Assembly: GCA_945957395.1 (NCBI GenBank)
Contig: CAMFKE010000003.1
Span: forward strand, 310,001-374,000
Direction of reading: 5' to 3'
DNA from: an uncultured Opitutia bacterium
Lineage (GTDB): Bacteria; Verrucomicrobiota; Verrucomicrobiia; Opitutales; UBA953
DNA length: 64,000 bases
Below are positions 38,061-63,132 of the stretch, in pieces (within the stretch, counting starts at the first letter, position 1; each line of letters opens with the position of its first letter). A model generated the notes under the pieces. The model was not told the DNA's origin, searched no databases, and worked only from the letters and a program-made list of their open reading frames with translations. The position numbers and the translations under genes are program-made.

Positions 38061-38837
38061 TCAGAAGCCGAATTCGCTCTGGTCGTCCTCCCCGACCGCT
38101 TCGGCGCCGAGGGCGGCTTTGCCGCCGTCGAGGATGCCGCGCAGGAAGAGTGGGCGGTGCTCCGGGCACGGGCCGTGCCGGTGGATCGCCAGCACATGCT
38201 CGGGCGTGCCGTAGCCCTTGTGCTCGGCGAATCCGTATTGCGGATACACTTTGTCCAGGGCGGTCAGCGCGCGGTCGCGCGTGACCTTGGCGACGATGGA
38301 GGCCATGGCGATGACGAGCGATTTGCCGTCGCCGCCCACGATGGCGTGGTGCTCCCACGCGAAGGGCTTGAGCGGTTTGCCGTCGACCAGCACGGGCACG
38401 GCGGCCGGGCTTCCGGCGGCGAAGAGGGGGTCGCCCGCCTGTCCGACCGGGGCGAAGGGCGGGTGTGAGCCCGGGGCGGCGTCGGCGAGGGTTTTGAGGG
38501 CGCGGCTCATGGCCAGCCGGGTGGCGCCGAGGATGTTGTAGACGCCGATCTCCATCACCGAGGCCTCGCCTGCGGCGAAACGCAGGACGCCCTTGTCGCG
38601 CCACAGCGTGATGAGGTCGAGCAGCTCGGCGCGGTCGTCGGCGGAGAGCTGCTTGGAGTCGTTCACCGCCGATGCCAGGCGGGCGCGCATGCGGCTGTCG
38701 TAGAATTTCGCGTCCGCCCACACGGCGGCGGCGACGACGGGGCCCGCCAGGCAACCGCGTCCGGCCTCGTCGACGCCGCAGAGGCCCGGCGACGCGCCGA
38801 GGCGCTTTTTGTCGAACTGGATGAGCGAGGGGGTCAT
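38061..38837 (-). CDS. rnhB: Ribonuclease HII
   Basis: 258 aa, longer than the usual ~200-220. Cuts RNA in RNA-DNA hybrids and single ribonucleotides in DNA. Catalytic motif GVDEAGRGCLAGPVVAAAV (Asp23, Glu24), NDSKQLSADDRAEL, SIVAKVTRDR, and YGFAEHKGYGTPEHVLAI with the following H-R-x-S-F-like region changed to HRPLFLRG. The extra length comes from an insert (~110-150, GSHPPFAPVGQAGDPLFAAGSPAAVP). RNase HIII lies about 1.3 kb away on the same strand. Confidence 0.93.
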   Translation of the reverse strand: MTPSLIQFDKKRLGASPGLCGVDEAGRGCLAGPVVAAAVWADAKFYDSRMRARLASAVNDSKQLSADDRAELLDLITLWRDKGVLRFAAGEASVMEIGVYNILGATRLAMSRALKTLADAAPGSHPPFAPVGQAGDPLFAAGSPAAVPVLVDGKPLKPFAWEHHAIVGGDGKSLVIAMASIVAKVTRDRALTALDKVYPQYGFAEHKGYGTPEHVLAIHRHGPCPEHRPLFLRGILDGGKAALGAEAVGEDDQSEFGF

Positions 38838-38845
38838 GTCGAAGG

Positions 38846-38880
38846 GATTGCAAAAGGCATAGTGCGGATTGCAAAAGTGG
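38846..38880. repeat. Heptamer array upstream of rnhB
   Basis: Five in-phase 7-mers of type NNNNGCA on the plus strand (GATTGCA twice, AAAGGCA, and two diverged). It ends 8 bp from the rnhB start. The same words occur at 39322-39356 and inside the DUF4838 gene. Confidence 0.75.
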
Positions 38881-38943
38881 CTCCGCTTCGCTGCGCGCGA
38901 GCGAGACCGTTGTTGAGGTGGGTGGAGCTGTCGGGGTCGGGTG

Positions 38944-39315
38944 TCACGGCTGATTTCCCACGGTTTTTTTGGCCGTGTTTATCGATGCCGTGAGGATGGC
39001 CACGAGTTGGCTGCATTCGGAACGAAGGCCCTCAAGTTTGTCGGCGGAAATCGTTTCGGAGCGAACCAGGAGGTTGAGCCAATAGAGGGTTTCTTCGGCC
39101 TCCTTCAGGCAATCGCCAATCTTTGCGATAAATTCTTGGCGAGAGCGCGCTCTGGCGGCTTCGCGGTAGTTGGCGCCGATGGAGGTGCCGGAGCGGAGCA
39201 CCTGCCTGCCCATGATTTTCGACGCCTCGTCATTGGGCAATGAGCGCACCAGGCGGATGATTCGCAGCGCGAACTCTTCGGTTCGATCGAACAGGCTCTG
39301 TGCTTCCGGCGTCAT
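38944..39315 (-). CDS. Four-helix-bundle protein (S23 / IVP family)
   Basis: 123 aa. Matches the 23S-rRNA-intervening-sequence protein family of small four-helix bundles: FALRIIRLVRSLPNDEASKIMGRQVLRSGTSIGANYREA is diagnostic, followed by EFIAKIGDCLKEAEETLYWLNLLV. These proteins form pentamers in solved structures; their cellular role is unclear, and they are often found as isolated, possibly horizontally spread genes. AT content is higher than in the neighbours. It lies between rnhB and rnhC, preceded by a heptamer array. Confidence 0.88.
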   Translation of the reverse strand: MTPEAQSLFDRTEEFALRIIRLVRSLPNDEASKIMGRQVLRSGTSIGANYREAARARSRQEFIAKIGDCLKEAEETLYWLNLLVRSETISADKLEGLRSECSQLVAILTASINTAKKTVGNQP

Positions 39316-39321
39316 CGGCGC

Positions 39322-39356
39322 TTACTTTTGCGATTTGCAATGTGCCTTGTGCAATC
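39322..39356. repeat. Heptamer array upstream of the four-helix-bundle gene
   Basis: Five in-phase 7-mers, four of them clear (TGCGATT, TGCAATG, TGCCTTG, TGCAATC). They are complementary to the NNNNGCA type seen near rnhB. The array starts 6 bp from the start codon. Confidence 0.75.
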
Positions 39357-39363
39357 AGGGCGC

Positions 39364-40392
39364 TCAGCCCTGTGACTTCGGTCTGCGGAAAATCCCCGGG
39401 TCCTTTTTCGCGGGGACGGGCAGGCCGCGCGCCTCGTAGGCGGTGCGGAAGTGCAGTTTGGCGTAGTCGGCGAGGGCGTCGTCGCCGTACTTCTCGACGA
39501 GCTTGCGGGCGATGTCGCGGGCGTTGCCGCCGGAGCCTTTGGGCAGTTCGACGCCGCACTTTTCGGAGAGGGCGCGCAGCTCGCGCACATACCTGGCGCG
39601 GGCGATGATGGAGGCGGCGGCCACGACCGGGTCGCTTTCCGCCTTGGTGCGCATCTGCAGGTCGAAGTCCTGGCCGCGCTTCTTCAACTCGCGCTGCACA
39701 AGCGGGGCGGTGGAGAACTGGTCGAGCAGGCCCCAGGTCGGGCGCGGCTGGCCGGCGGCCTCCCAGGCCTTGAGGGCCTCGTCGAGTCCGGCGGCGTGCA
39801 TCCAGGCGAGCAGCTTGTTCAGGTTGCTGCCGAACTTCACATACAGCTCGTTGTAGCGGCGCATGCCGCCGCAGACGGTCTTGATGGTCACTCCGGGCGT
39901 GCCGCGGATTTTCTTTTCCAGGGAGAGGATGGCGGAGTCGGAGCCGACGGCCTTGGAGTCGCGCACGCCGGAGTCGATCCAGCCGCGCACCATGTCCTCG
40001 GAGGCGATGACCGTGGCGGACACGACCGGGCCGAACAGGTCGCCCTTGCCCGATTCGTCGAGGCCGGCGTGGTCGGTGAACCATTCGGGGTGGTGCACCT
40101 CGTCGTAGCCGAGCTTGGCCACGCCCGTGATTTCCGGCTCGAGGATGTTTATCACGAAATCCTCGGTCTTCTTGCCGGAGACGACGAGTTTGCCGGAGGT
40201 GTAGCCCACGACATTCACGCCGTCGTCCTTGTACGCGAAGGCGGCGTGCTCCACGGCGAAAGGCACCCAGAGCTTGCGGGAAAGCAGGTCGCGCAGCTTC
40301 GCCATCTTCGCCGCATCGAGTTTCTCGGTGTGCAGCGCTTTCTTGGGCGGGCCCGAGGCGGCGTCCCCCGCCGGCTTTTTGCCAAATGTCAT
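39364..40392 (-). CDS. rnhC: Ribonuclease HIII
   Basis: 342 aa. Cleaves RNA-DNA hybrids. An N-terminal TBP-like substrate-binding domain (~25-100, DAAKMAKLRDLLSRKLWVPF..., NVVGYTSGKLVVSGK) is followed by the RNase H fold with AGLDESGKGDLFGPVVSATV (Asp112, Glu113), VRDSKAVGSD, and KAESDPVVAAASIIARARYVREL. The ES in G-L-D-E-S-G-K-G-D is the HIII hallmark versus DEAGRG in HII. Having both HII and HIII in one genome is less common than HI/HII pairs. A heptamer array sits between it and divergent mutY. Confidence 0.94.
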   Translation of the reverse strand: MTFGKKPAGDAASGPPKKALHTEKLDAAKMAKLRDLLSRKLWVPFAVEHAAFAYKDDGVNVVGYTSGKLVVSGKKTEDFVINILEPEITGVAKLGYDEVHHPEWFTDHAGLDESGKGDLFGPVVSATVIASEDMVRGWIDSGVRDSKAVGSDSAILSLEKKIRGTPGVTIKTVCGGMRRYNELYVKFGSNLNKLLAWMHAAGLDEALKAWEAAGQPRPTWGLLDQFSTAPLVQRELKKRGQDFDLQMRTKAESDPVVAAASIIARARYVRELRALSEKCGVELPKGSGGNARDIARKLVEKYGDDALADYAKLHFRTAYEARGLPVPAKKDPGIFRRPKSQG

Positions 40393-49337: not shown

Positions 49338-51572
49338 ATGCGCGTCGCCCTCATCGGCAATCCCAACACGGGCAAGACCACCCTGTTCAACGCCCTCACC
49401 GGGCTGCGACAGCGCGTGGGCAACTACCCGGGCGTCACCGTCGCGAAGAAATCCGGCCTGTTCTCGCTGGCCGACGGCACGAAGGTCGAACTGATCGACC
49501 TGCCCGGCATCTACAGTCTCGCCGCTCAGTCGCTGGACGAGCGCGTGGCGCTCGACGTGCTGTGCAACCATATCGCGGACACGCCGCCGCCCGACGCGCT
49601 GCTGGTGGTGTGCGACGCGGCGAACCTGCTGCGCAACCTCTTCCTGCCCTCGCAGCTCGCCGAGCTGGGCATCCCCATGGTGCTGGTGCTCAACCACATG
49701 GACGAGGCGCGCCGCCGCGGCATGACTCTCGACACCGAACTGCTTTCCCGCCGGTTGGGCGGCGTGCCGGTCGTGCCGTGCTCGGCCGTGCGCGCCGAGG
49801 GCGTGCCGGAGATCCGCGCCGCCCTGGCCGCCTTGCGCGAGAGTCCGGTGAAGGCCTCGCGCGTGGCGTGGGACGCTCCGGTGCAGGCCGCCGTGGAGCG
49901 CGTGCGCGCGGCCATCGAGCGCGACACCGGCAAATCGCTTCAGCCGGCCGAGGCGCAGCGCGTGCTGTTCGACGCCAATTCGCCCGTGCTGGAGCGTCTG
50001 GCCTGGCCCGCCGCGAAGCGCGAGCCGGTGCTGGCCGAGGCGCGCGAACTCATCCGCAAATCCGGGGCCAATCCGTTCGCGGTGGAGGCGCTGCGCCACT
50101 ACGCCAGGCTGCGCCAGGCGCTCGCCGGCGTGGTGAGCGAAGGAGGCGCCGCCACCGGCGTGACGCAGAGGCTGGACGCGGTGCTGCTGCACCGGGTGTG
50201 GGGCACCGTCATCTTCGTGGCCGCCAGCCTGCTCGTGTTCCTGTCCATCTTCTGGCTCGCGAAGTTCCCCATGGACTGGATCTCCGCCGGCGTGGACCGC
50301 GTGAAGGACGCGGTCGGCGCGATGGCGTGGCTGGGCGACAAGCCGATGCTGCACAGCCTGCTGTCCGACGGCGTGGTGGGCGGCGTGGGGGCGTTCCTGG
50401 TGTTCCTGCCGCAGATCCTGATCCTGTTCTTCTTCATCAGTCTGCTGGAGGACTCCGGGTACATGGCGCGCGCGGCGTTCCTCATGGACAAGCTGTTCTC
50501 CTGGTGCGGCCTGAACGGCAAGAGCTTCGTGCCGTTGCTTTCCGGATACGCGTGCGCGGTGCCCAGCATCATGGGCACGCGCACCATCGAGGACCCCAAG
50601 GCGCGCGCCGCCACGGCGTTCGTCGTGCCGTTCATGAGCTGCTCCGCGCGCTTCCCGGTGTACGCGCTGATGATCGGCGCGTTCATCACGCCCAAATACG
50701 GCGCGTGGATCGGGTCGCTCGCCATGGTCGGCATGCACCTGCTCGGCCTGCTTGTCGCCGTGCCCACGGCGTTCGTCGCCACCCGCTTCTTCCTCAAGGT
50801 GCGCCCGCAGCCGTTCGTGCTGGAGATGCCGCGCTACCAGCTTCCGCGCCTCAGGGACACGCTCTGGCGCATGTGGATGAACGCGCGCGAGTTCATCGAG
50901 AAGGCCGGCACGCTCATTTTCGCCATCACCGTCGTGGTGTGGGCGCTCTCCTGGTTCCCTCGCGACGCCGCCGTGGCGGAGCGGGTGAAAACCGGATACG
51001 TCGCCGAGGTCGCGGCGAGGGAGAACATCCCGGTCGCCGAGGCGGCGAAACGCGTCGAGGCGCCCGCTCCCGAGCCCGCGTCGCCGACGGAGGGGGCGCC
51101 GGTCAATCCGCTGGCCGCGGAGCTCGATCACCGCACGGCGTCCGCGTACATCGAGGACAGCTACCTGGGTCGTTTCGGCAAGGCCGTGCAGCCGGTGTTC
51201 GCGCCGGCCGGTTTCGACTGGAAGATCACCGTGGGCGTGCTGGCCAGTTTCCCCGCGCGCGAGGTGATCGTGTCCACGCTCGGCATCACCTACTCGCTGG
51301 GCGAGGGGGCCGAGGCGGAGAGCGACGACCTGCGCGGCGCCATGGCCCGGGCGGTGTGGCCGGACGGGCCGAAGGCGGGCACGCCCATCTTCACGGTGTC
51401 CGTGGCCGTCGCCATCATGGCGTTCTTCGCGCTGTGTTCGCAGTGCGGCGCCACGCTCGCCACGCTGTCGCGCGAACTGGGAGCGCGCTGGGCCGCCGCC
51501 TCGTTCCTGTACATGACCACGCTCGCCTGGCTCGCCGCCGTGGCCATCCACCAGGTCGGGCTTCTGCTTTAA
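49338..51572 (+). CDS. feoB: Ferrous iron transport protein B
   Basis: 744 aa. GTP-dependent Fe(II) uptake across the inner membrane. The N-terminal G domain has GNPNTGKTTLFNALTG (7-22), the switch YPGVTV, DLPGIYSL and NHMD; a helical GDI-like domain follows (~165-265). About ten membrane helices form two Gate regions with LSGYACAVPSIMGTRTIEDPKAR and SCSARFPVY, and GVLASFPAREVIVSTLGITYSLGEG near the end. All family motifs are present. It is followed by a Cys-rich small membrane protein. Confidence 0.96.
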   Translation: MRVALIGNPNTGKTTLFNALTGLRQRVGNYPGVTVAKKSGLFSLADGTKVELIDLPGIYSLAAQSLDERVALDVLCNHIADTPPPDALLVVCDAANLLRNLFLPSQLAELGIPMVLVLNHMDEARRRGMTLDTELLSRRLGGVPVVPCSAVRAEGVPEIRAALAALRESPVKASRVAWDAPVQAAVERVRAAIERDTGKSLQPAEAQRVLFDANSPVLERLAWPAAKREPVLAEARELIRKSGANPFAVEALRHYARLRQALAGVVSEGGAATGVTQRLDAVLLHRVWGTVIFVAASLLVFLSIFWLAKFPMDWISAGVDRVKDAVGAMAWLGDKPMLHSLLSDGVVGGVGAFLVFLPQILILFFFISLLEDSGYMARAAFLMDKLFSWCGLNGKSFVPLLSGYACAVPSIMGTRTIEDPKARAATAFVVPFMSCSARFPVYALMIGAFITPKYGAWIGSLAMVGMHLLGLLVAVPTAFVATRFFLKVRPQPFVLEMPRYQLPRLRDTLWRMWMNAREFIEKAGTLIFAITVVVWALSWFPRDAAVAERVKTGYVAEVAARENIPVAEAAKRVEAPAPEPASPTEGAPVNPLAAELDHRTASAYIEDSYLGRFGKAVQPVFAPAGFDWKITVGVLASFPAREVIVSTLGITYSLGEGAEAESDDLRGAMARAVWPDGPKAGTPIFTVSVAVAIMAFFALCSQCGATLATLSRELGARWAAASFLYMTTLAWLAAVAIHQVGLLL

Positions 51573-51573
51573 A

Positions 51574-51682
51574 AGAAGTCGGAACTCGGAGCGCGGAATG
51601 CGGAACAGGTTTCCGGCTTCGCGATTCGAATCGGCCAAGCCGGTGCGTTGTTTCGCATTCCGAGTTCCTTGTTCCGAGTTTC
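51574..51682. repeat. Inverted heptamer arrays after feoB
   Basis: Left, 51574-51608: GGAACTC, GGAGCGC, GGAATGC, GGAACAG, preceded by one diverged unit. Right, 51648-51682: TTGTTTC, GCATTCC, GAGTTCC, TTGTTCC, GAGTTTC. Left words of type GGAANNC are complementary to right words of type GNNTTCC. An inner CCGGCTT/AAGCCGG stem adds to the fold. Exact 7-nt phasing in both arms. Confidence 0.85.
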
Positions 51683-51686
51683 CTCC

Positions 51687-51884
51687 ATGACCGTCGACAC
51701 CCTCATCGTTTCCGCCGCCGTGCTCGCCGCCCTGGGGTGGCTGGTGGCGCGCGCCCTGCGCCGGATGCGGGCGCGCAACGCCAAGGGCGGCGGGTGCCCG
51801 GGCGGCTGCGGCTGCTCCGGCTCGACCGGGGAACTTTTGAAAAGAAAAACGCCGCCCGGGAAGGGCGGCGAAGGCGGGCGGTAG
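51687..51884 (+). CDS. FeoB-associated Cys-rich membrane protein
   Basis: 65 aa from the ATG at 51687. One N-terminal membrane helix (TLIVSAAVLAALGWLVARAL) followed by a basic patch and the Cys cluster GGGCPGGCGCSGSTG. This matches small FeoB-associated Cys-rich proteins found next to feoAB in other bacteria, which take the place of FeoC. It ends in a Lys/Gly-rich tail and starts 115 bp after feoB. Confidence 0.8.
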   Translation: MTVDTLIVSAAVLAALGWLVARALRRMRARNAKGGGCPGGCGCSGSTGELLKRKTPPGKGGEGGR

Positions 51885-51905
51885 GCGTGGCGCCCCCCCC
51901 GGGGC

Positions 51906-52118
51906 TCAGTAGTGAGGCGGGCGCTCGTCGGGCGAGGAACCCGCGCCCGCGGGGCCGGAGTCGCCGCCCTGTTTCACACTCTCCGCAAGGCGGCCGAGTC
52001 GGCGCTCCAGGAGGTCCATGCGGCGGGTCATCTCCATCATGGCGCGGTCCTGCTCGCCCACATGTCGCTCCAGGAAGGCGATTTTGATTTCCAGCTCGTG
52101 CAGTCGGTCGTCGGACAT
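51906..52118 (-). CDS. slyX: SlyX-family coiled-coil protein
   Basis: 70 aa. A short coiled coil (RLHELEIKIAFLERHVGEQDRAMMEMTRRMDLLERRLGRLAE) and a C-terminal tail ending DERPPHY. The L-E-x-K-I-A-F-L-E start and the PPHY end are the SlyX signature. Function unknown, named after neighbours in E. coli. Confidence 0.82.
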   Translation of the reverse strand: MSDDRLHELEIKIAFLERHVGEQDRAMMEMTRRMDLLERRLGRLAESVKQGGDSGPAGAGSSPDERPPHY

Positions 52119-52166
52119 GGCTGACGGAGTAGGGGCGGTTGACCGGGTGGAAACGGAAAAAGGCGG

Positions 52167-52188
52167 CGGGTGCGCCTCACCCGTTTTT
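52167..52188. terminator. Hairpin between slyX and the second kinase
   Basis: Stem CGGGTG/CACCCG with a 5-nt loop, then TTTTT on the plus strand. On the minus strand it is followed by CCGCCTTTTTCC and could end the kinase transcript. Confidence 0.5.
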
Positions 52189-52219
52189 ACGCGGGAAGGC
52201 GCATGCCGTCGGGTGGGGC

Positions 52220-52981
52220 TCAGAGGTGCTTGGCCGAAAGGGCCGCGCCGATCACGCCGGCGTCGTTGCCCAGTTGCGCGATATGGATGGGGCAGGGGGC
52301 CTTGAGCAGGTGCAGGAAGTGCTCGGCCTTGTGCGCGCCGCCGCCGCCCAGGATGATGAGCTCGGGCTGCAGCAGCATGTGCAGCTCCTCCAGGTACTCG
52401 TTGAAGAGCTCGGCCCAGCGTTCCCAGGAGAGGCCCAGCTTCTCGCGGTTGATGTCGGAGAGCAGCTTCTCGGCGCGGATGCGTTCGCCGGGGGCGCCCA
52501 AGGGGTTGGGGATGTGGATCTGTCCGGGCTCGAGGTTGGGCACCAGGTTGCCCCCGTGCACGAGCGCGCCGCCGATGCCGGTGCCTAGTGTGAGCACGAG
52601 CGTCACGCCGGGCGCGATCTCCGATTTGTCGTAGGCGGCGATGGCCAGGCCCGCCGCGTCGGCGTCGTTCACCAGCGTGATGTGGTGCAGCCCGGTGCGC
52701 GCCTTCAGCTTGTCCACCAGGCGCACGCCGATCAGGTCGGGGTCGAGGTTAGAGGCGGCGCCGATGACGCCGGAGCGCACGATGCCGGGGAAACCGATGC
52801 CCACATGGCCCGAGTGCCCGGTGGCCACGATGATGCTGCTGAGCGCCACGAGCAGCGACTCCTGCGTGCAGGGCTTGGGCGTGGGCGTGCGCATGACATC
52901 GCCAATCAGCATGCCGGTCGAGGTGCGCACGAGGGCGTACTTGATGTTGGTTCCGCCGATATCGATGCCGAGGATGATCAT
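52220..52981 (-). CDS. Polyphosphate-glucokinase-like ROK kinase (copy 2)
   Basis: 253 aa. Paralogue of the kinase at 46777, with the same layout: ILGIDIGGTNIKYALV, ITLVNDADAAGLAIAAY, LTLGTGIGGALVHGGNLVPN, NPLGAPGERI, LIILGGGGAHKAEHFLHLLKAPCP and NDAGVIGAALSA. After PN the sequence is LEPGQ, so the E-x-G-H motif of PPGK is changed here as in copy 1, suggesting a shared lineage-specific variant. A heptamer array lies directly before the start. The two copies are not in tandem, so this is an older duplication. Confidence 0.82.
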   Translation of the reverse strand: MIILGIDIGGTNIKYALVRTSTGMLIGDVMRTPTPKPCTQESLLVALSSIIVATGHSGHVGIGFPGIVRSGVIGAASNLDPDLIGVRLVDKLKARTGLHHITLVNDADAAGLAIAAYDKSEIAPGVTLVLTLGTGIGGALVHGGNLVPNLEPGQIHIPNPLGAPGERIRAEKLLSDINREKLGLSWERWAELFNEYLEELHMLLQPELIILGGGGAHKAEHFLHLLKAPCPIHIAQLGNDAGVIGAALSAKHL

Positions 52982-53016
52982 GGTTGGGTTTCCGGGTTCA
53001 GGTTGTCGGTTTCAAG
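52982..53016. repeat. Heptamer array before the second kinase
   Basis: Five in-phase 7-mers near NTTCNGG on the plus strand: GGTTGGG, TTTCCGG, GTTCAGG, TTGTCGG, TTTCAAG. It begins directly at the start codon of the minus-strand gene. Confidence 0.7.
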
Positions 53017-53099
53017 CGAGGGGCTTGCTCCGATTCTGTACGCATAATTTACATTCCGGCGCCTTGGCCGGTGGAAAAATCGTTTTCCCGGAAAATTTT

Positions 53100-54197
<1,098 letters not shown>

Positions 54198-54207
54198 GCG
54201 AGACGAA

Positions 54208-54242
54208 GAAAGGGGAAAGGGGAAAGAGGAAAGGGGAAAGAG
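54208..54242. repeat. GAAAGRG heptamer array before ruvB
   Basis: Five perfect 7-nt units: GAAAGGG at 54208, 54215 and 54229, and GAAAGAG at 54222 and 54236. It begins 10 bp from the ruvB start codon; on the ruvB sense strand it is a pure C/T tract. Confidence 0.9.
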
Positions 54243-54251
54243 GCGGCGGCC

Positions 54252-54307
54252 GACGCGAGGTACGAGACGCGAGGTACGAGATGCGAGGTACGAGAGACGA
54301 GGGATGA
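54252..54307. repeat. 14-nt tandem repeat (two heptamers per unit) between DUF4838 and ruvB
   Basis: The unit GACGCGAGGTACGA occurs at 54252 and 54266, with one change at 54280, and degenerate at 54294. Seen as heptamers, all eight follow GNNNYGA. A related array lies at 57011-57066, so the two bracket the DUF4838 gene. Confidence 0.92.
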
Positions 54308-54354
54308 GAGGCCCCCGGACTAAGAACTTGGGGCGAGTGGGAAATTTCGCCGGA

Positions 54355-56988
54355 TTACTCGCCGACCGGGGCCTTGCGCACGCGCACGACGAGGTCGTCC
54401 ACCCACAGAGCGTCCTCGGGCCCTTGGTACATCACGCGCAACTGCACCTCGGCGGCGACCGCTCCGGGCGGCGCGGAGGCGAAGGTGGCGAGGTCACGCC
54501 AGCCCGTGTCGGGACCGGGCAGGGCGACCGACTCGGAACCGCCTGCGAGCACGCGGCCTTCGGCGCTCAGGAAACGCAGACCGAGCGCGACATGCACGCC
54601 GGCGGTGATTTCGCCGGCGTGCCGGAGCCTGGCGGCGAGCAGGTCGCCGGGCCGCACGGGCACGATGCGCGAGAGCCGGGCGAGGTCGCCTCCGGCGATC
54701 AAAAGGGAGGATTCGCCGGAGGCGGCGCGACGGTCGCTGCGGCCGAAGCGGGTGTGTTCGGCCTCGAAGAGATTCGTGCGCCAGGGCGCCTTGGGCAGCG
54801 TCAGGCCGCGGCGGGCCGCCCAGGTGCCGGGGGTCCCCTCACGGAAGCCCGCGAGTTCAAAGCCTTCGTTCACTACCGTTTCCACGGCCGCCCCGGGGTG
54901 TTCGGCCAGCGCGTCAGCGGCTTCGGCCGGCACGGGCGAGCCGGCGGGCAGCGAGGCGGCGAAGGCGCCGCACTTCAGCGCGGCCAGAGCCCCGGCGTCG
55001 GCCCTTCGGAATGCATCGGGTGTGAACGGGCCGCCGGGGTTGAGTGCGCAGGCGTTCCAGCGGCGTGCCGCCTCAAAGTAGCGCGCCTCGGCGGCCAGAC
55101 ATTCGGCGAGCGCCCCGGTGATGCGGCGGGCGCCGGCCGCATCGGTGGCAACGGGCAGCGCGTCCAGCCGGCGTTTGGCGGCGTAGGCCGCGGCGAGAGC
55201 CTCGGTCTTGGCGAACGACACCGACACGGCTCGCACGCGCAGCCGGCGTCGTTCCGTCCGTTCCGCCTGATCCTCCGGCGCGTCGGGCTCGGCGCGCGGG
55301 AAGGCTCGCTCGGCCTCGTCGAGCGCGGAGCGCATGTCGGCGCATACGGAGGCGGGGAAGAGCTCGGCGACGGATTCCTCGCGGAAGAAGCGTATCCATC
55401 GGGGCGGTTGGGGGCGGTCGGCCCAGCGGGACTCGGCGATTTCGTAGAATCGGCGCATGGGGCGCGCCGCGGGGCCGTAGGCGCGCTTGTAATAAAAATC
55501 CAAGGACGCCTCGGCGTTGGCGAAGGGGTCTTGGGCGAGTCGGGCGGCGAGCCAGGCCTTGGGGCCGTCGAAGCCCCAGTCGGGGTAGAGTTCGGCGTAA
55601 AAGAGCTTCGCGCCGCAGGCGGCGGCGTGACGCATGGAGGCGGCCTGGGCGCGGTGGAAAATGCGCGGGGCGGCGACATCGCGGCCGTAGTAATAATCGT
55701 AGATGCCGAAGGCCGCTGCGCCGGAGGCGGCCCAGCGCCGCATGAGCGCGGCGTCCTCGGCGGCGAAGGCCGGGTCCCGCCATTCCGAGCGGTCGGCCGT
55801 GAGGATGGGGAACACCTCCGGCTCCACTCGGAATGACGGCGTGTTCTCGCAGTGGTAGTAGGCGTAGGCGGTCAGAAAACGCCGGTGGGCGTTTTCTGAC
55901 GAAGGGGGGAGGTGGATGGTGGAAGGTGGAAGGGCGGAGGAGGGCGCGTCGGCGTCGTTTTTTGCGGGCGACTGTGGCGGTTTTGCAATTTGCCTTTTGC
56001 AATCTGCATTTTCCCGAAGGGCGACTGCGCTCCGGTTCATGAACCCGAAGACATAGTCGGAGTAATCGGGGCGGTTGCGGAAGAATTTCCCGGTGCCGAG
56101 CGCGGCGCGCGACTCGGGCGATTCGTCCCAGGTCATGTTGTCGTTGATGCTCAGCGAGAACGCCGGTGCGTCCTGGTTTTGCTCAAAGAACTCGCGGGCC
56201 CGGCGCGCCGCGTGGGTGGCGGAGTCGGGGTTGGCGAGGTTGGGCTGCGGCTCATAGCCGCCGCGCCCGGTGGGGCCGACTCGCCTGCCGCCCAGCAGCG
56301 GGAACATCGCCGGGTTTTGCTCGAACGCCGCGGCGTCGAACACCGACCACAGCGCGTGGTTCATCGCGGGCAATTCGCCCAGTCCGTTGTCCTTGGCCCA
56401 TGCTCGCTCGACAGGGGTGTCCAGTCCGGACAGTTGCCGCCAGGCGAACGCGGGGACGAACTCGCGCCGCGTGTCCGGGGCGGCGATGTCTTGTCGCGGC
56501 TCCCAGTCCGCGCCGAAATCTCCCGGTAGCAGGAATTCCACGCCGAGGTGTTCGCGCGCGAAACGCGAGACGGCCAGGCGCGTGGCGAGCGGGCTCTCGC
56601 CCACCAGGAAGACGGTGCGCCGGTCGCGGCGCGCCTCCCACGCGAAGGCCTCGCGGGAAAGTGACTTAGGGGGCAAGACACCGGCGGCCTTGGCGCGCCG
56701 CGTGTCGCCCACATACACCCCGGTTTCGGTGCGCCCCGGGTTCTCGACGGCCACGACGGGCGACGCGCCTGTCACCGTGCGGGTGTATCGCGCCAGCAGC
56801 CGCGCCGCCTCGCGCTCCTCGTCGGACGCCTCCGCGGCGACGAAGATTTTCCCTGAAAAGACGCCGTCGCGCACGAGCCACGACGGGCTTTCCGTGAACG
56901 GCATGCCGGGTTCCGCCCCGAGCTTCGCCGCCGCACACGCGAGGGCGAGTGCTGTCAGCGGCAGGCGGTGCTTTGGCGGGCGGGGCAT
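54355..56988 (-). CDS. Exported DUF4838-domain protein
   Basis: 877 aa. A signal peptide (MPRPPKHRLPLTALALACAAAKLG) is followed by an alpha/beta N-terminal part resembling glycosidase-associated domains (~45-150, AARLLARYTRTVTG, YVGDTRRAKAAGV). A large central DUF4838 region (~155-560) contains FLLPGDFGADW, AFSLSINDNMTWDESPESRA and GIYDYYYGRDVAAPRIF. The C-terminal ~150 residues form a CBM-like beta domain (YQGPEDALWVDDLVVRV). These proteins are presumed to act on glycans but lack biochemical data. Within the domain, about residues 325-375 are low complexity (AKPPQSPAKNDADAPSSALP...) and are encoded by repeat arrays of the intergenic type, an unusual in-frame insertion. Confidence 0.8.
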   Translation of the reverse strand: MPRPPKHRLPLTALALACAAAKLGAEPGMPFTESPSWLVRDGVFSGKIFVAAEASDEEREAARLLARYTRTVTGASPVVAVENPGRTETGVYVGDTRRAKAAGVLPPKSLSREAFAWEARRDRRTVFLVGESPLATRLAVSRFAREHLGVEFLLPGDFGADWEPRQDIAAPDTRREFVPAFAWRQLSGLDTPVERAWAKDNGLGELPAMNHALWSVFDAAAFEQNPAMFPLLGGRRVGPTGRGGYEPQPNLANPDSATHAARRAREFFEQNQDAPAFSLSINDNMTWDESPESRAALGTGKFFRNRPDYSDYVFGFMNRSAVALRENADCKRQIAKPPQSPAKNDADAPSSALPPSTIHLPPSSENAHRRFLTAYAYYHCENTPSFRVEPEVFPILTADRSEWRDPAFAAEDAALMRRWAASGAAAFGIYDYYYGRDVAAPRIFHRAQAASMRHAAACGAKLFYAELYPDWGFDGPKAWLAARLAQDPFANAEASLDFYYKRAYGPAARPMRRFYEIAESRWADRPQPPRWIRFFREESVAELFPASVCADMRSALDEAERAFPRAEPDAPEDQAERTERRRLRVRAVSVSFAKTEALAAAYAAKRRLDALPVATDAAGARRITGALAECLAAEARYFEAARRWNACALNPGGPFTPDAFRRADAGALAALKCGAFAASLPAGSPVPAEAADALAEHPGAAVETVVNEGFELAGFREGTPGTWAARRGLTLPKAPWRTNLFEAEHTRFGRSDRRAASGESSLLIAGGDLARLSRIVPVRPGDLLAARLRHAGEITAGVHVALGLRFLSAEGRVLAGGSESVALPGPDTGWRDLATFASAPPGAVAAEVQLRVMYQGPEDALWVDDLVVRVRKAPVGE
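55871..55900. repeat. 13-bp inverted repeat inside the DUF4838 gene
   Basis: GTCAGAAAACGCC (55871-55883) and its exact complement (55888-55900) with a 4-nt loop. It directly precedes the repeat arrays on the plus strand. Confidence 0.9.
55907..56015. repeat. Two heptamer arrays inside the DUF4838 coding region
   Basis: 55907-55941: GGGAGGT, GGATGGT, GGAAGGT, GGAAGGG, CGGAGGA. 55981-56015: TTTTGCA twice, ATTTGCC, ATCTGCA, TTTTCCC. The second set shares the TTGCAAT words of the rnhB and four-helix-bundle leaders. The reading frame stays open across both. Confidence 0.85.
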
Positions 56989-57363
56989 CGGGGCTCAGGA
57001 TGGGCTTCCGGATTCGAGATACGAGAGAGGAGATGGGAGATACTAGATTAGAGATACGAGGAGGGAGAACCTCCGAGGGGGGCCGTTTCCCCGTGGGGCG
57101 CTACCCTCGCCGTCCCGGGAGCGAAAGACGTCCGATTGATGGGGCGCGATGCCGTTCGTTTCAGGTTTTTAACGCCCCCGGGGTGCTTTTTGTCTGAAAA
57201 TTATGGGTATAAGGGCCCGAGCGGCGTCAGGAAAGTGTGAATGCCGGGTTTGTGAAGAGTGGCGGCTTGTCGGTTTTGGGGAAGGGTGGAATGTTCTCCG
57301 TCGCACCACCCGCTAGGGGGTGAAACATACCATCATACAAAACCCAAAAGAAAGACTCATACT
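56989..57363. other. Gene-free region between DUF4838 and the prepilin gene
   Basis: 375 bp. It holds the heptamer array 57011-57066 and then a stretch without recognisable gene. A TATAAG box (57208-57213) lies in a locally AT-rich patch; I see no good -35. Its transcript would give a ~140-nt leader before the prepilin start at 57364. No tRNA or other RNA gene is seen. Confidence 0.5.
57011..57066. repeat. Heptamer array before the DUF4838 gene
   Basis: Eight in-phase 7-mers of type GANNNGA, including GATTCGA, GATACGA, GAGAGGA, GATGGGA, GATTAGA and GGAGGGA. Related to the array at 54252-54307 (GATACGA versus GGTACGA). It starts 22 bp from the start codon. Confidence 0.85.
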
Positions 57364-57972
57364 ATGAAGACTCAGCTCAAGAAGGGCTTCACGCTCGTCG
57401 AAATCATGATCGTCGTGGTCATCATCGGCCTGCTCGCCGCCCTCGCCATCCCGGCCTTCAAGAAGGTGCGCAACAACGCCATCGAGAAGACCCTCATCAA
57501 CGACGGCCGCCAGATTTCCTCCGCCGCTTCCCAGATTATGTCTGAGAACGCCGTCAATGTGATTCCCGCCAACCAGCTCGTGAAGTATGTTGCCGGCGGC
57601 AAGCTCTCCTCGGGCGTGCGTATTGTTTCCTCCACCACGACTCTGCCTGCTCAGGGTGGCGTTTACTTTACTGGTGTGGCTGCTGCAGCTTCTGCGACTT
57701 CGGTTGTCAACGCGCAGCTCGGCGTGCTTGATGCTTCCGGTGCCGTGACGGGTGGTGCTACTGGCACCTTTGTGCAGGGTGGCGGTTTCGTGCTCGCTCA
57801 CGCCAACTTTGACAAGAGCCTGGCCTCGAGCGACCGCGTTCGTCTCTCCGGCACTACGGCTACTTGGTCCAATGCTGCCACTGACACCCCTCCCGGCCCC
57901 TCCGGCACTGCTCTGACTGCTACGGATCTCACCCAGGTTGCCTTCTCGGTCGACACCGGCGAAGTTCTCTAA
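57364..57972 (+). CDS. Prepilin-like protein (type IV pilin / pseudopilin)
   Basis: 202 aa from the ATG at 57364. A type III signal with cleavage expected at KKG|FTLVEIMIVV (Glu5 of the mature protein present), then a hydrophobic helix. A conserved helix follows (IPAFKKVRNNAIEKTLINDGRQISSAASQIM), and then a Thr/Ser/Gly/Ala-rich C-terminal domain without the usual Cys pair. Codons in the C-terminal half shift to T-rich choices, unlike neighbours. A paralogue lies in inverted orientation at 59813-60307 and shares FVLAH-x-x-[FY]-D in the tail. It probably forms part of a pilus or type II secretion pseudopilus; no pilus assembly genes are nearby. Followed by a strong terminator. Confidence 0.88.
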   Translation: MKTQLKKGFTLVEIMIVVVIIGLLAALAIPAFKKVRNNAIEKTLINDGRQISSAASQIMSENAVNVIPANQLVKYVAGGKLSSGVRIVSSTTTLPAQGGVYFTGVAAAASATSVVNAQLGVLDASGAVTGGATGTFVQGGGFVLAHANFDKSLASSDRVRLSGTTATWSNAATDTPPGPSGTALTATDLTQVAFSVDTGEVL

Positions 57973-57992
57973 GGGTAGACTTCCTGAAAAAG

Positions 57993-58019
57993 GAGCGGCG
58001 GAAACGCCGCTCTTTTTTT
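57993..58019 (+). terminator. Strong terminator after the first prepilin gene
   Basis: Stem GAGCGGCG/CGCCGCTC with a GAAA tetraloop, then seven T. The loop and T-run are ideal for intrinsic termination. Confidence 0.93.
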
Positions 58020-58063
58020 GTTTTAAGCGGAAGGGTGGAGAGCAGTTTTTAATCCAAAAGACG

Positions 58064-59788
58064 ATGAAGGAAGTCGCACCAAAGAAGTGGTATGCCGTGG
58101 CCGAAGGCGTCGCCTTGGCCGTGGCCCTTGGGCTGCTGGCCTGGCTCGTGTGGGAAGGGTCGCTTGGGGCGGTGCTGGCGCGTGAGCGGCTGTCGCAGAT
58201 GTTTTGGCTAGAGCCTTGGGCCGGAGGCGGCCTTCGTCCGGGGTCAAGCGTCCCCGGCGTCGGCGTGAGCCTCTTGATGGTGGCGCTGTCCGCCTATGCC
58301 TTGGTGCGGGGCGCGGGCAGACCTAAAGGCGAGTTTCGCCTACCCTGGTTGCTGGCCGTCGTACTGGGGGCGCTGGCTTTTGTCGGTGCGGGTGACCCCG
58401 TTGGCGTGTGGGCAGTGGGGTGCGTTGTCGTCGCCTTCGTGATCCGCGGCGGTGCTCGATGGAAGCTGATGGGCATGAGCTTGTTATTTGCCTCAGGGGT
58501 GCTCGTGGGGGTGAATCAGTTATGGACCTGGACATCCCCTTCGCCCGATATGGCGCCGGGTCTGTTTTGGCGTGTGGCAGCGGGAGTTTCGTTGGCTGCT
58601 TTGGCGGGTTTTGGGATGCGCCGTGCCGCCGAGCTCAGCCCGCTAAAGACAATGGGTGTCGTGGCACTGCTATCTTGTGTCGCGTATGCCCCCATGCTTC
58701 CCGACGGGCGGCGTATCGGGTTGTCGGACCTTGGTCCGCGAATCGTCGAGGACTGCGCAAGTGCCGGGATGCGGAGAAATCGCAGCGCGTTGGCGGGGTA
58801 TCGTCTGTCATCCGCGGACGCCTCGGAGCGCAGGCATGCCCGGCAGGAGGATGCCACGGATTGGAATCGGCTCGGGGGCCTCTTGTCTGACCTTTCGCCC
58901 GAATCGCAGGTGAAGCAGTGGCTTTTGGCCGATGCGGCGCTCTTTGCTTCCGGTGAGACCGGCCCCCGACAGGACCGGATAGTAGCGGCTCTGGCCGAGA
59001 TTCCTGAGAGCGGCCCTTGGGCGCAGGAGTTGCGCGGGGCGTTGCTGCTGTCAATCGGTCGAGCCGGCGATGCGGCGCTTTGCTTTCAGGAAGTGGTCGG
59101 GGCCGCCCCCGGCAATGCCGGCGGTTGGCAGGCCTTGGCGCAGGCGCAAGGTCGGTGCGGCGACCGTTCAGGATGCGCCAAGTCGTTGGCGATGTGGCTT
59201 TTGTTGGAGCCCAAGGCCGCGTTTTCCCCTGTGTTGAACAAGCCGCCTTTGCTTGATTCCTGCGCCGAGGCGTTTCGGCACATTCGCGGCTATCTTTCCC
59301 TTCGGCCCGATTTTGACCGGCAAGGCTTTTACCTGGCTGCGGAAAAATGGGTTGCTTCAAAAGAAGCGCCCTTGGCCAAGGCGAGCGATTTGGGGGCCTT
59401 CAAACCTGCGCCGGCCTGCCTTGAGTTGCGGGAGCGTCTGATGAATTTGGCCAAGGCGGGCGGTGTTGGAGCGGACGCGCTCGTGAGTTCCGCAGTGACC
59501 GCCTTGACCGACAGGTATGTGAATTCCGGTCAGGCGACTCAGCTTTGGGCGGCAACAGGGGCGCCCGGTGCGGGTCCTGAGGTGGCCGGTATTCAGCCTC
59601 TGCGTACCAGGCCCGCCATGTCCGGCAGGGATTTTTCCTGGTTGGGCGCGGGCGATTCAGTCGGCACCCGGCTGGTGGCCTTGGAGGAGGATGTGTGGGC
59701 TCGCCTCTTGGTGTATGGTGGTTCGCCATTACCCTGCCTTGACGATGTCGCGCCTGCTCTAAGCCACGTGCGCAGCTCTCATCCCTAG
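58064..59788 (+). CDS. Multi-pass membrane protein with C-terminal helical/TPR-like domain
   Basis: 574 aa from the ATG at 58064; the open frame begins earlier, inside the preceding gene's end. The first ~200 residues contain five or six membrane helices (WYAVAEGVALAVALGLLAWLVW, LMVALSAYALV, LLAVVLGALAFVGA, VWAVGCVVVAFVI, MSLLFASGVLVGV and LFWRVAAGVSLAALAGFG). The rest is a soluble, mostly helical part with TPR-like spacing (LLLSIGRAGDAALCFQEVVGAAPGNAGGWQALAQAQGRCGD). No known catalytic motif. Base composition is less GC-biased than the region around it. It lies between two inverted prepilin genes, so a link to pilus or O-glycosylation (PglL/O-antigen-ligase-like layouts) is possible but unproven. 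Confidence 0.65.
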   Translation: MKEVAPKKWYAVAEGVALAVALGLLAWLVWEGSLGAVLARERLSQMFWLEPWAGGGLRPGSSVPGVGVSLLMVALSAYALVRGAGRPKGEFRLPWLLAVVLGALAFVGAGDPVGVWAVGCVVVAFVIRGGARWKLMGMSLLFASGVLVGVNQLWTWTSPSPDMAPGLFWRVAAGVSLAALAGFGMRRAAELSPLKTMGVVALLSCVAYAPMLPDGRRIGLSDLGPRIVEDCASAGMRRNRSALAGYRLSSADASERRHARQEDATDWNRLGGLLSDLSPESQVKQWLLADAALFASGETGPRQDRIVAALAEIPESGPWAQELRGALLLSIGRAGDAALCFQEVVGAAPGNAGGWQALAQAQGRCGDRSGCAKSLAMWLLLEPKAAFSPVLNKPPLLDSCAEAFRHIRGYLSLRPDFDRQGFYLAAEKWVASKEAPLAKASDLGAFKPAPACLELRERLMNLAKAGGVGADALVSSAVTALTDRYVNSGQATQLWAATGAPGAGPEVAGIQPLRTRPAMSGRDFSWLGAGDSVGTRLVALEEDVWARLLVYGGSPLPCLDDVAPALSHVRSSHP

Positions 59789-59812
59789 CCGCCGTGCGCC
59801 TCTCTTACGGTG

Positions 59813-60307
59813 TCAGTTGGGGTCGCGTTCGGGAAGACCTGTGGCGACGGAGAATTGCAGTGCTGCGCTATTGGTGGTAACGAACCCTTGGGCGGCGCTT
59901 CCCGAGGTGCTCCAGGCTCTGTCATAGGTGTTGTGCGCCAGAACAAAGTAGCCGTCTCTGCCGAAGTCTCCTGTCGCCGTGTTGACCGGCTCGTTGGGCG
60001 CAAGTCTTGCCGGTGTGATTGGCTCGCCTCGGCCCGGGGACGAAGTGAGGATTTCCACGCCCGAACTAAGGCGCGGAATGGCATTGGCGAGCCTGGCTAC
60101 GGGTACCGTCGAGGTCGGGTTTTCCGTCATGAAAATGCAGGCGGCGGAGGCCAGCTGCTTGCCGTCGTAAATCAGAGTGTTCTCGATACTTTTATTGCGG
60201 ACCTTTTTGAAAGAGGGCACCGCGATTGCGGATAGGAGGCCGATAATCACCACGACAATCATGATTTCAACCAGGGTGAAACCTTTGTTTTTAAGGCTGA
60301 TTTTCAT
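59813..60307 (-). CDS. Prepilin-like protein, second copy
   Basis: 164 aa from the ATG at 60307. Cleavage site NKG|FTLVEIMIVV, then a helix and VPSFKKVRNKSIENTLIYDGKQLASAACIFM, nearly the same as in the first prepilin. The tail shares GYFVLAHNTYDRAW with GGFVLAHANFDKSL there, so the two are homologous along the whole length. The C-terminus is shorter. It is transcribed toward the membrane/TPR gene, in inverted orientation relative to the first copy. Function presumably in the same filament or secretion complex. Confidence 0.87.
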   Translation of the reverse strand: MKISLKNKGFTLVEIMIVVVIIGLLSAIAVPSFKKVRNKSIENTLIYDGKQLASAACIFMTENPTSTVPVARLANAIPRLSSGVEILTSSPGRGEPITPARLAPNEPVNTATGDFGRDGYFVLAHNTYDRAWSTSGSAAQGFVTTNSAALQFSVATGLPERDPN

Positions 60308-62461: not shown

Positions 62462-63016
62462 TTAGCCGACGACCTTGGTGTCGATGATGCGGTGGCGTCC
62501 CTTGAAGGTGTCGCGCACCGAGTTGCGTTCGCTGTGAATCTTCTCCTGAAGCAGCAGCATGCCGTCGAGGAGGGCCTCGGGGCGCGGGGGGCAGCCGGAG
62601 ATGTAGACATCGACGGGGACGATGCGGTCGACGCCCTGGAGGGTGGCGTAGGAGCGGTACATGCCGCCGGAGGAGGCGCAGGCGCCCATGGCCACGACCC
62701 ACTTGGGCTCGGCCATCTGATCGTAGATGCGGCGCACCACTTCGGCCATCTTGTAGGTGACGGTGCCGGCGACGATCATGCAGTCGGACTGGCGGGGCGA
62801 GAAGCGCATCACTTCCATGCCGAAGCGGGCGATGTCGAAGCGGGAGCCGCCGGCCGCCATGAGCTCGATGGCGCAGCAGGCCAGGCCCATGGGCATGGGC
62901 CAGACGGAGTTGGCGCGAAGCCAGTTCACCACGGCGTCGGCGCGCGTGACGATGATCTCGCCCTCGATTTTGCTGTCGTAGGCGATTTCTGAGGCGGCGG
63001 CGGCGTTGTTGCTCAT
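62462..63016 (-). CDS. nuoB: NADH-quinone oxidoreductase subunit B
   Basis: 184 aa from the ATG at 63016. Carries cluster N2, the last Fe-S centre of complex I. Cys ligands: Cys47-Cys48 in [10 protein letters not shown], Cys113 in [11 protein letters not shown], Cys142 in [15 protein letters not shown]. All four are present. First of nuoB-C-D; nuoA is not upstream and nuoE-N are not in the window, so the remaining subunits are encoded elsewhere. Confidence 0.96.
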
Positions 63017-63090: not shown

Positions 63091-63132
63091 GGGAAGGTGG
63101 GAGGTGGTAGGTGCGCAAAGCGCAAAGGAAGG
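63091..63132. repeat. Heptamer array upstream of nuoB
   Basis: Six in-phase 7-mers: GGGAAGG, TGGGAGG, TGGTAGG, TGCGCAA, AGCGCAA, AGGAAGG. Confidence 0.7.

Follow-up and report, generated by a model that had tools for sequence, protein, structure and literature searches.

An in-frame segment of intergenic-type heptad repeats in a DUF4838-family gene of an uncultured Opitutia bacterium, probably a lineage-specific insertion

The window, by which we mean the whole stretch of 64,000 nucleotides that was analysed, contains a DUF4838-family gene on the minus strand. The original prediction had described in this gene a 13-bp hairpin, followed by a GGAAGGT array and a TTTTGCA array, in a reading frame that nevertheless stays open. 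This description, including its coordinates, was confirmed by a perfect-hairpin search, TRF and a comparison with shuffled sequences, and the frame is indeed open over 877 codons. The features in and directly around the gene are as follows.

54355 to 56988, minus strand: DUF4838-family gene carrying the insert, ORF of 877 aa, matching Pfam PF16126 in two stretches (E 1.4e-15)
55885 to 56013, minus strand: estimated inserted segment of 129 nt or 43 codons, encoding about ENADCKRQIAKPPQSPAKNDADAPSSALPPSTIHLPPSSENAH, absent from distant homologues and replaced by a different loop in the sister genus
55871 to 55900, strand not given: perfect hairpin with 13-bp arms and a 4-nt loop, GTCAGAAAACGCC-GGTG-GGCGTTTTCTGAC
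55903 to 55940, plus strand: GGAAGGT (GGTGGAA) heptad array found by TRF, lag-7 segment score 17
55981 to 56012, plus strand: TTTTGCA heptad array found by TRF, related to about 15 other arrays of the genome
55966 to 55974, plus strand: GGGCGACTG, a 9-bp direct copy of native 56019-56027 across the TTTTGCA array, suggestive only (chance about 6%)
54208 to 54312, plus strand: two heptad arrays (GAAAGGG and GCGAGGTACGAGAG) in the gene's downstream spacer, found by TRF
57003 to 57060, plus strand: heptad array (GAGATACGAGA) in the gene's upstream spacer, found by TRF

The limits of the inserted segment are an estimate, approximate to a few codons. Of the two hairpin arms, the one at 55871-55883 belongs to the native coding DNA and codes for RFLT, which lines up with residues conserved in the homologues. 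The arm at 55888-55900, within the insert, is an inverted copy of it; GGCGTTTTCTGAC encodes RFLT. As a control for this edge copy, inverted matches of at least 12 bp to random flanks were obtained in 0.2% of trials. For the hairpin, a third-order Markov control gave about 0.7 perfect hairpins with arms of at least 13 bp per 389 kb. The majority of the perfect hairpins in the contig with arms of at least 11 bp are intergenic and terminator-like. Perfect hairpins inside genes are rare in the contig, and a second one, with 11-bp arms, is present in the same gene at 54594-54622. TRF reported a period of 7 at 55901-55933 (unit GAAGGTG) and of 7/14 at 55981-56012 (units TTTTGCA/TTTTGCAATCTGCA), and a non-repetitive spacer of 40 nt (55941-55980) separates the two arrays. 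With at most two mismatches, TTTTGCAWTYTGC had 8 matches in the window versus 2.1 expected, and GGAAGGTGGAAGG had 7 versus 2.0; these counts were reached in 0 of 100 shuffles in either case. Unlike many other arrays of this genome, and unlike the one in hrpA described below, the two arrays are not Watson-Crick inverted partners and can pair only via G-U on the plus strand (z -2.35); the mRNA strand folds mainly through the 13-bp hairpin. An Rfam scan of 50000-60000 gave no family match at gathering score. Beyond tolerance of the insert, no function is supported for either the inserted peptide or the plus-strand G-U hairpin.

The homologue alignment that the original prediction had proposed brought out the insert. 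A DUF4838 homologue was present in 39 of the 57 genomes searched, and the alignments repeatedly break near residue 324 and resume near residue 369. Distant homologues have almost no loop at this position. In the nearest sister genus the loop measures roughly 20-35 residues, is unrelated and non-repetitive, and has WDAxRW as a recurring motif, which is absent from the protein studied here; a scan of these sister-genus loops for a lag-7 signal found none. Since the loop is short in distant homologues and unrelated in the sister genus, the position tolerates insertions, and, judged from the alignments, it is an indel-prone, length-tolerant loop and not a rigid domain. Of the idea that the repeats interrupt an otherwise conserved domain, the insert itself thus stands, but the sister genus has a loop of its own at the same place, which makes it an indel hot spot. 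The stretch encoded by heptads occurs in this lineage only, as far as can be seen from a comparison that covers a single assembly of the organism, distant homologues and the nearest sister genus. A PDB sequence search with the protein gave no match. The AlphaFold model of the protein is weak (pLDDT 57.9, pTM 0.42), and in this model the insert (residues 328-368) has a pLDDT below 50 and lies between a helix (308-326) and a strand (371-376).

The inserted DNA had been taken to be of intergenic type, with its TTTTGCA words shared with the leaders of rnhB and a four-helix-bundle gene. Both words do recur in gene leaders and spacers, and TTTTGCA arrays lie upstream of both genes. The arrays concerned in the window are listed here.

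38842 to 38876, minus strand: TTTTGCA-type array in the leader of rnhB (38061-38837)
39326 to 39351, plus strand: TTTTGCA-type array upstream of the four-helix-bundle gene (38944-39315)
63092 to 63127, plus strand: GGAAGGT-type array in the leader of the NADH-dehydrogenase 20-kDa-subunit gene (62462-63016), not within the gene

The array at 63092-63127 and those at several gene starts had been considered as intragenic candidates, and were rejected because they actually lie upstream of likely start codons. By eye, the gene at 38061-38837 is RNase HII-like and lies near an RNase HIII-like gene (39364-40392), with the four-helix-bundle (S23-type) gene between them (38061-40392).

The distribution of heptad arrays was determined in 1.21 Mb, or 43% of the genome, comprising contig C3 as a whole and contigs C1 and C2 nearly as a whole, with gene starts assigned by simple scoring. 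Lag-7 self-similarity segments numbered 23 in C3, 15 in C1 and 15 in C2, versus 0-3 at control lags. In C3, the control lags (4, 5, 8, 10, 11, 13 and others that are not multiples of 7 or 3) gave 0-2 segments, and an excess was also seen at lag 14. The arrays are dispersed, degenerate, mostly intergenic and mostly situated between co-directional genes. An inverted partner was found within 200 bp for 48% of the arrays, versus 5% expected, and a direct partner for 9%. The arms at one locus resemble each other, which fits intrastrand templating. Array words vary by locus and are shared by neighbours, as with GAAAACC/GAAACCT across the ATP-synthase operon, GGTTTCA at 378-385 kb and CGAGATA at 364-376 kb. 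The spacers of atpA, atpG, atpD and atpC, genes that were recognised by eye (C3:184192-188843; L053), hold inverted pairs of GAAAACC/GAAACCT-type arrays, and since these are inside an operon that is probably co-transcribed, the arrays are not simply terminators. The array heptads are stop-free in six frames in 75.5% of cases, versus 62.6% of shuffled heptamers (p 0.014).

TTTTGCA arrays are often paired as ...GCAAAAGTGG - core - CCACTTTTGC..., and in intergenic pairs of this subfamily (L117-L131) the array repeatedly meets a core of 40-100 bp at the inner boundary AAAAGTGG/CCACTTTT. When a conserved core was sought near the arrays (AAAGGACTT, AAAAGTGG and others), none proved general and recurrence was limited to this subfamily boundary; likewise, the array flanks had no k-mers in common except the array words. 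The two heptad words that adjoin in the DUF4838 insert are unrelated, and they follow each other in the same order at one intergenic locus (C10, L122). Perfect (GGTGGAA)n arrays of about 53 bases stand at four contig ends (the end of C1 and the starts of C2, C8 and C11), where these long arrays probably broke the assembly. Besides these contig-end arrays, the exact GGTGGAA-type 16-mer matches only this DUF4838 gene. The GGTGGAA word is absent from 56 relatives but turns up in six genomes scattered over the phylum. The stretches sampled from those six genomes show a period-7 excess with an overlapping vocabulary, clearest in the genomes G196, G216 and G272.

When the 1.21 Mb were scanned for arrays flanked on each side by coding sequence in a single open frame, only three cases were accepted, namely the DUF4838 gene, hrpA and an SNF2-type helicase gene. 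The hrpA gene is a clear second case, with an 84-bp inverted heptad pair (C1:368658-368741; L150:8658-8741; RNA fold z -6.6) in a linker near the HA2/OB region, which is longer than in three same-order orthologues, the fourth having a different long linker. The SNF2-type helicase, named by eye from its sequence, carries an imperfect inverted heptad pair in a variable linker (RNA fold z -3.1); this is a probable third case and the least certain of the three. The peptides encoded by the three inserts differ. Several other candidates were dismissed: the GC-rich period-7 segments at C3:271493, C3:352225, C1:194456 and C2:300016 had a positive coding score throughout and looked like ordinary coding sequence, and a weak candidate antisense of C3:67571 was taken for an intergenic array and set aside.

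In G272, a distant genome of the same phylum, two neighbouring glycosyltransferase ORFs (L188:40-6248) carry several in-frame heptad inserts. Two of these interrupt the GT2 domain in frame, the first with about 65 residues, at places where homologues (50-58% identical in segments and 37-47% over longer alignments) have short loops. Three of the inserts share a core in the same frame (REQEREESEQKIAEA, REQREESSRKIAED and RRREESEQQIVEN; the DNA of the best pair is 77% identical over 62 nt), which is not composed of heptads and encodes a REQ(E)REESEQKIAEA-like peptide. This shared core is evidence of copying between sites in G272. A search of the G272 genome with the core found copies at that one locus only, indicating a local and not a dispersed family. 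The insert pieces from G272 that were folded as RNA had no folding arms.

With moderate confidence, we interpret the segment in the DUF4838 gene as a lineage-specific, in-frame insertion of an intergenic-type heptad element into a length-tolerant loop, most likely caused by a replication error and not by a transposase. Template switching plus slippage is suggested by one edge of the insert, where 13 bp of native coding DNA reappear as an inverted copy; an edge of this kind results when a strand changes its template at a stalled fork. The replication fork would have stalled at the DUF4838 site, after which the nascent strand may have switched template and produced the inverted copy at one edge, and perhaps also the 9-bp direct copy near the other. 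Heptad words would then have been copied in, possibly from other loci, and slippage in a 7-nt register would have lengthened the arrays; PMC4692102 cites a published hypothesis that ties the length of 7 nt to the polymerase contact length. The insert presumably survived as a neutral change, retained by tolerance, because its net length is a multiple of three, both heptads are stop-free in six frames and the length of the loop is variable. In whichever frame a 7-bp unit is read, the heptapeptide is one and the same, which in this insert gives a degraded PPSTFHL repeat. The frame therefore matters only at the two junctions, and a stop-free array is readable wherever it lands, so that the total length alone must fit. 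The original prediction had also suggested that these elements can move or be copied between sites. Copying is plausible in view of the recurrence in hrpA, probably in the SNF2 helicase gene, and in the glycosyltransferase genes of G272, but for movement as an element neither a donor copy in the two sampled contigs searched nor a core common to the arrays was found. In those two contigs, exact matches of the insert to other places did not exceed 15-16 bp, and the weak 9-bp direct repeat was the only sign of a target duplication. A much wider reading, which we offer as a doubtful speculation, would make heptad-array palindromes a class of transposase-free selfish or mutational DNA, scattered over Verrucomicrobiota and relatives, that spreads by template switching between nearby sites, has arms kept alike by intrastrand copying, and repeatedly adds disordered segments in frame to conserved enzymes.

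Alternatively, the variable loop could have gained its heptads in situ by local slippage, like a microsatellite, with the resemblance to other loci reflecting a shared 7-nt mutational bias. We consider this unlikely, though it deserves to be taken seriously: the loop varies in all homologues, the two sampled contigs yielded no donor, and the occurrence of GGTGGAA in scattered, distant genomes of the phylum and not in near relatives means that words may arise repeatedly. However, local growth does not fit well with two unrelated heptad words placed side by side in the order seen at the C10 locus, with the inverted copy of the native flank at the insert edge, or with the non-heptad core shared by three G272 inserts. 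That same core, together with the inverted-arm layout, the in-frame genic copies and the precedent in Rickettsia (PMC10969869), could instead point to a non-autonomous palindromic element, MITE- or RPE-like, that is mobilised by a transposase in trans and inserts in frame into genes. This is improbable, since the sampled arrays of this genome have no conserved termini or core, the words change from locus to locus, a convincing target duplication is missing and the edge hairpin takes one of its arms from native coding DNA; the label 'mobile element' is thus unproven.

It is very improbable that no insertion took place and that the common ancestor with the sister genus already had a loop of about 20-35 residues, which decayed here to low complexity. 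The site varies in length in any case, so that such a loop could have drifted. The sister-genus loops are of similar order, lie at exactly the position of the insert and have the recurring WDAxRW motif, but this motif is absent here, the sister loops have no lag-7 signal, and coding drift would not be expected to produce two period-7 arrays in a gene on a contig of 68% GC.

The invasion of genes in frame by palindromic repeats is best known from Rickettsia. That it occurs in unrelated bacteria with heptad material, which in many cases has no stop codon on either strand, suggests that there is a general way for non-coding repeats to turn into protein sequence. The finding also offers a test bed for the over-representation of 7-nt units in bacteria. 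In practical terms, domain annotation can be misled by heptad inserts, and several contig ends of the assembly carry long perfect arrays.

Several known systems share features with these arrays. As in intergenic palindromes such as REP/BIME (PMC3733652), inverted arrangements occur in spacers, but a conserved palindrome of 20-40 nt was not seen and the arms are heptad arrays. The common terminal inverted repeats and target duplications that characterise MITEs were not found, apart from the single 9-bp direct repeat. Borg tandem repeats create disordered protein segments (PMC9879509), and here too repeat DNA gives rise to new, low-complexity and probably disordered protein segments; however, Borg units in ORFs are near-perfect and divisible by three, whereas the unit here is 7 nt, degenerate, and in frame only by total length. 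Rickettsia palindromic elements (RPE) are families with a conserved sequence and a conserved peptide that are found in frame in genes (PMC10969869). The arrays resemble them in size (roughly 100-200 nt), in their inverted arms, in their location between and inside genes and in their in-frame insertion at tolerated positions (in DUF4838, in hrpA, with less certainty in the SNF2 gene, and in GT2 of G272), and G272 has a repeated core that is read in one frame. In contrast to RPE, their arms are degenerate period-7 arrays with words that vary by locus, the genome of the window shows neither a family consensus nor a conserved peptide, and core sharing is restricted to the G272 inserts. Heptameric simple-sequence repeats are known from Xanthomonas and Nostoc, including heptanucleotide repeats of Calothrix, and in Xanthomonas 7-11% of them overlap ORFs; the work on these dealt with a single G-rich type of word that has G-quadruplex potential (PMC4692102). 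The arrays agree with these heptameric SSR/STRR in their degenerate 7-nt unit, which is enriched over other unit lengths, and in their dispersed and mostly intergenic location, mainly between co-directional genes. They differ in having many locally shared words per genome, a frequent inverted partner and inserts that interrupt conserved proteins. In its outcome the DUF4838 case therefore resembles RPE, and in its material it resembles the heptamers of Xanthomonas and Nostoc.
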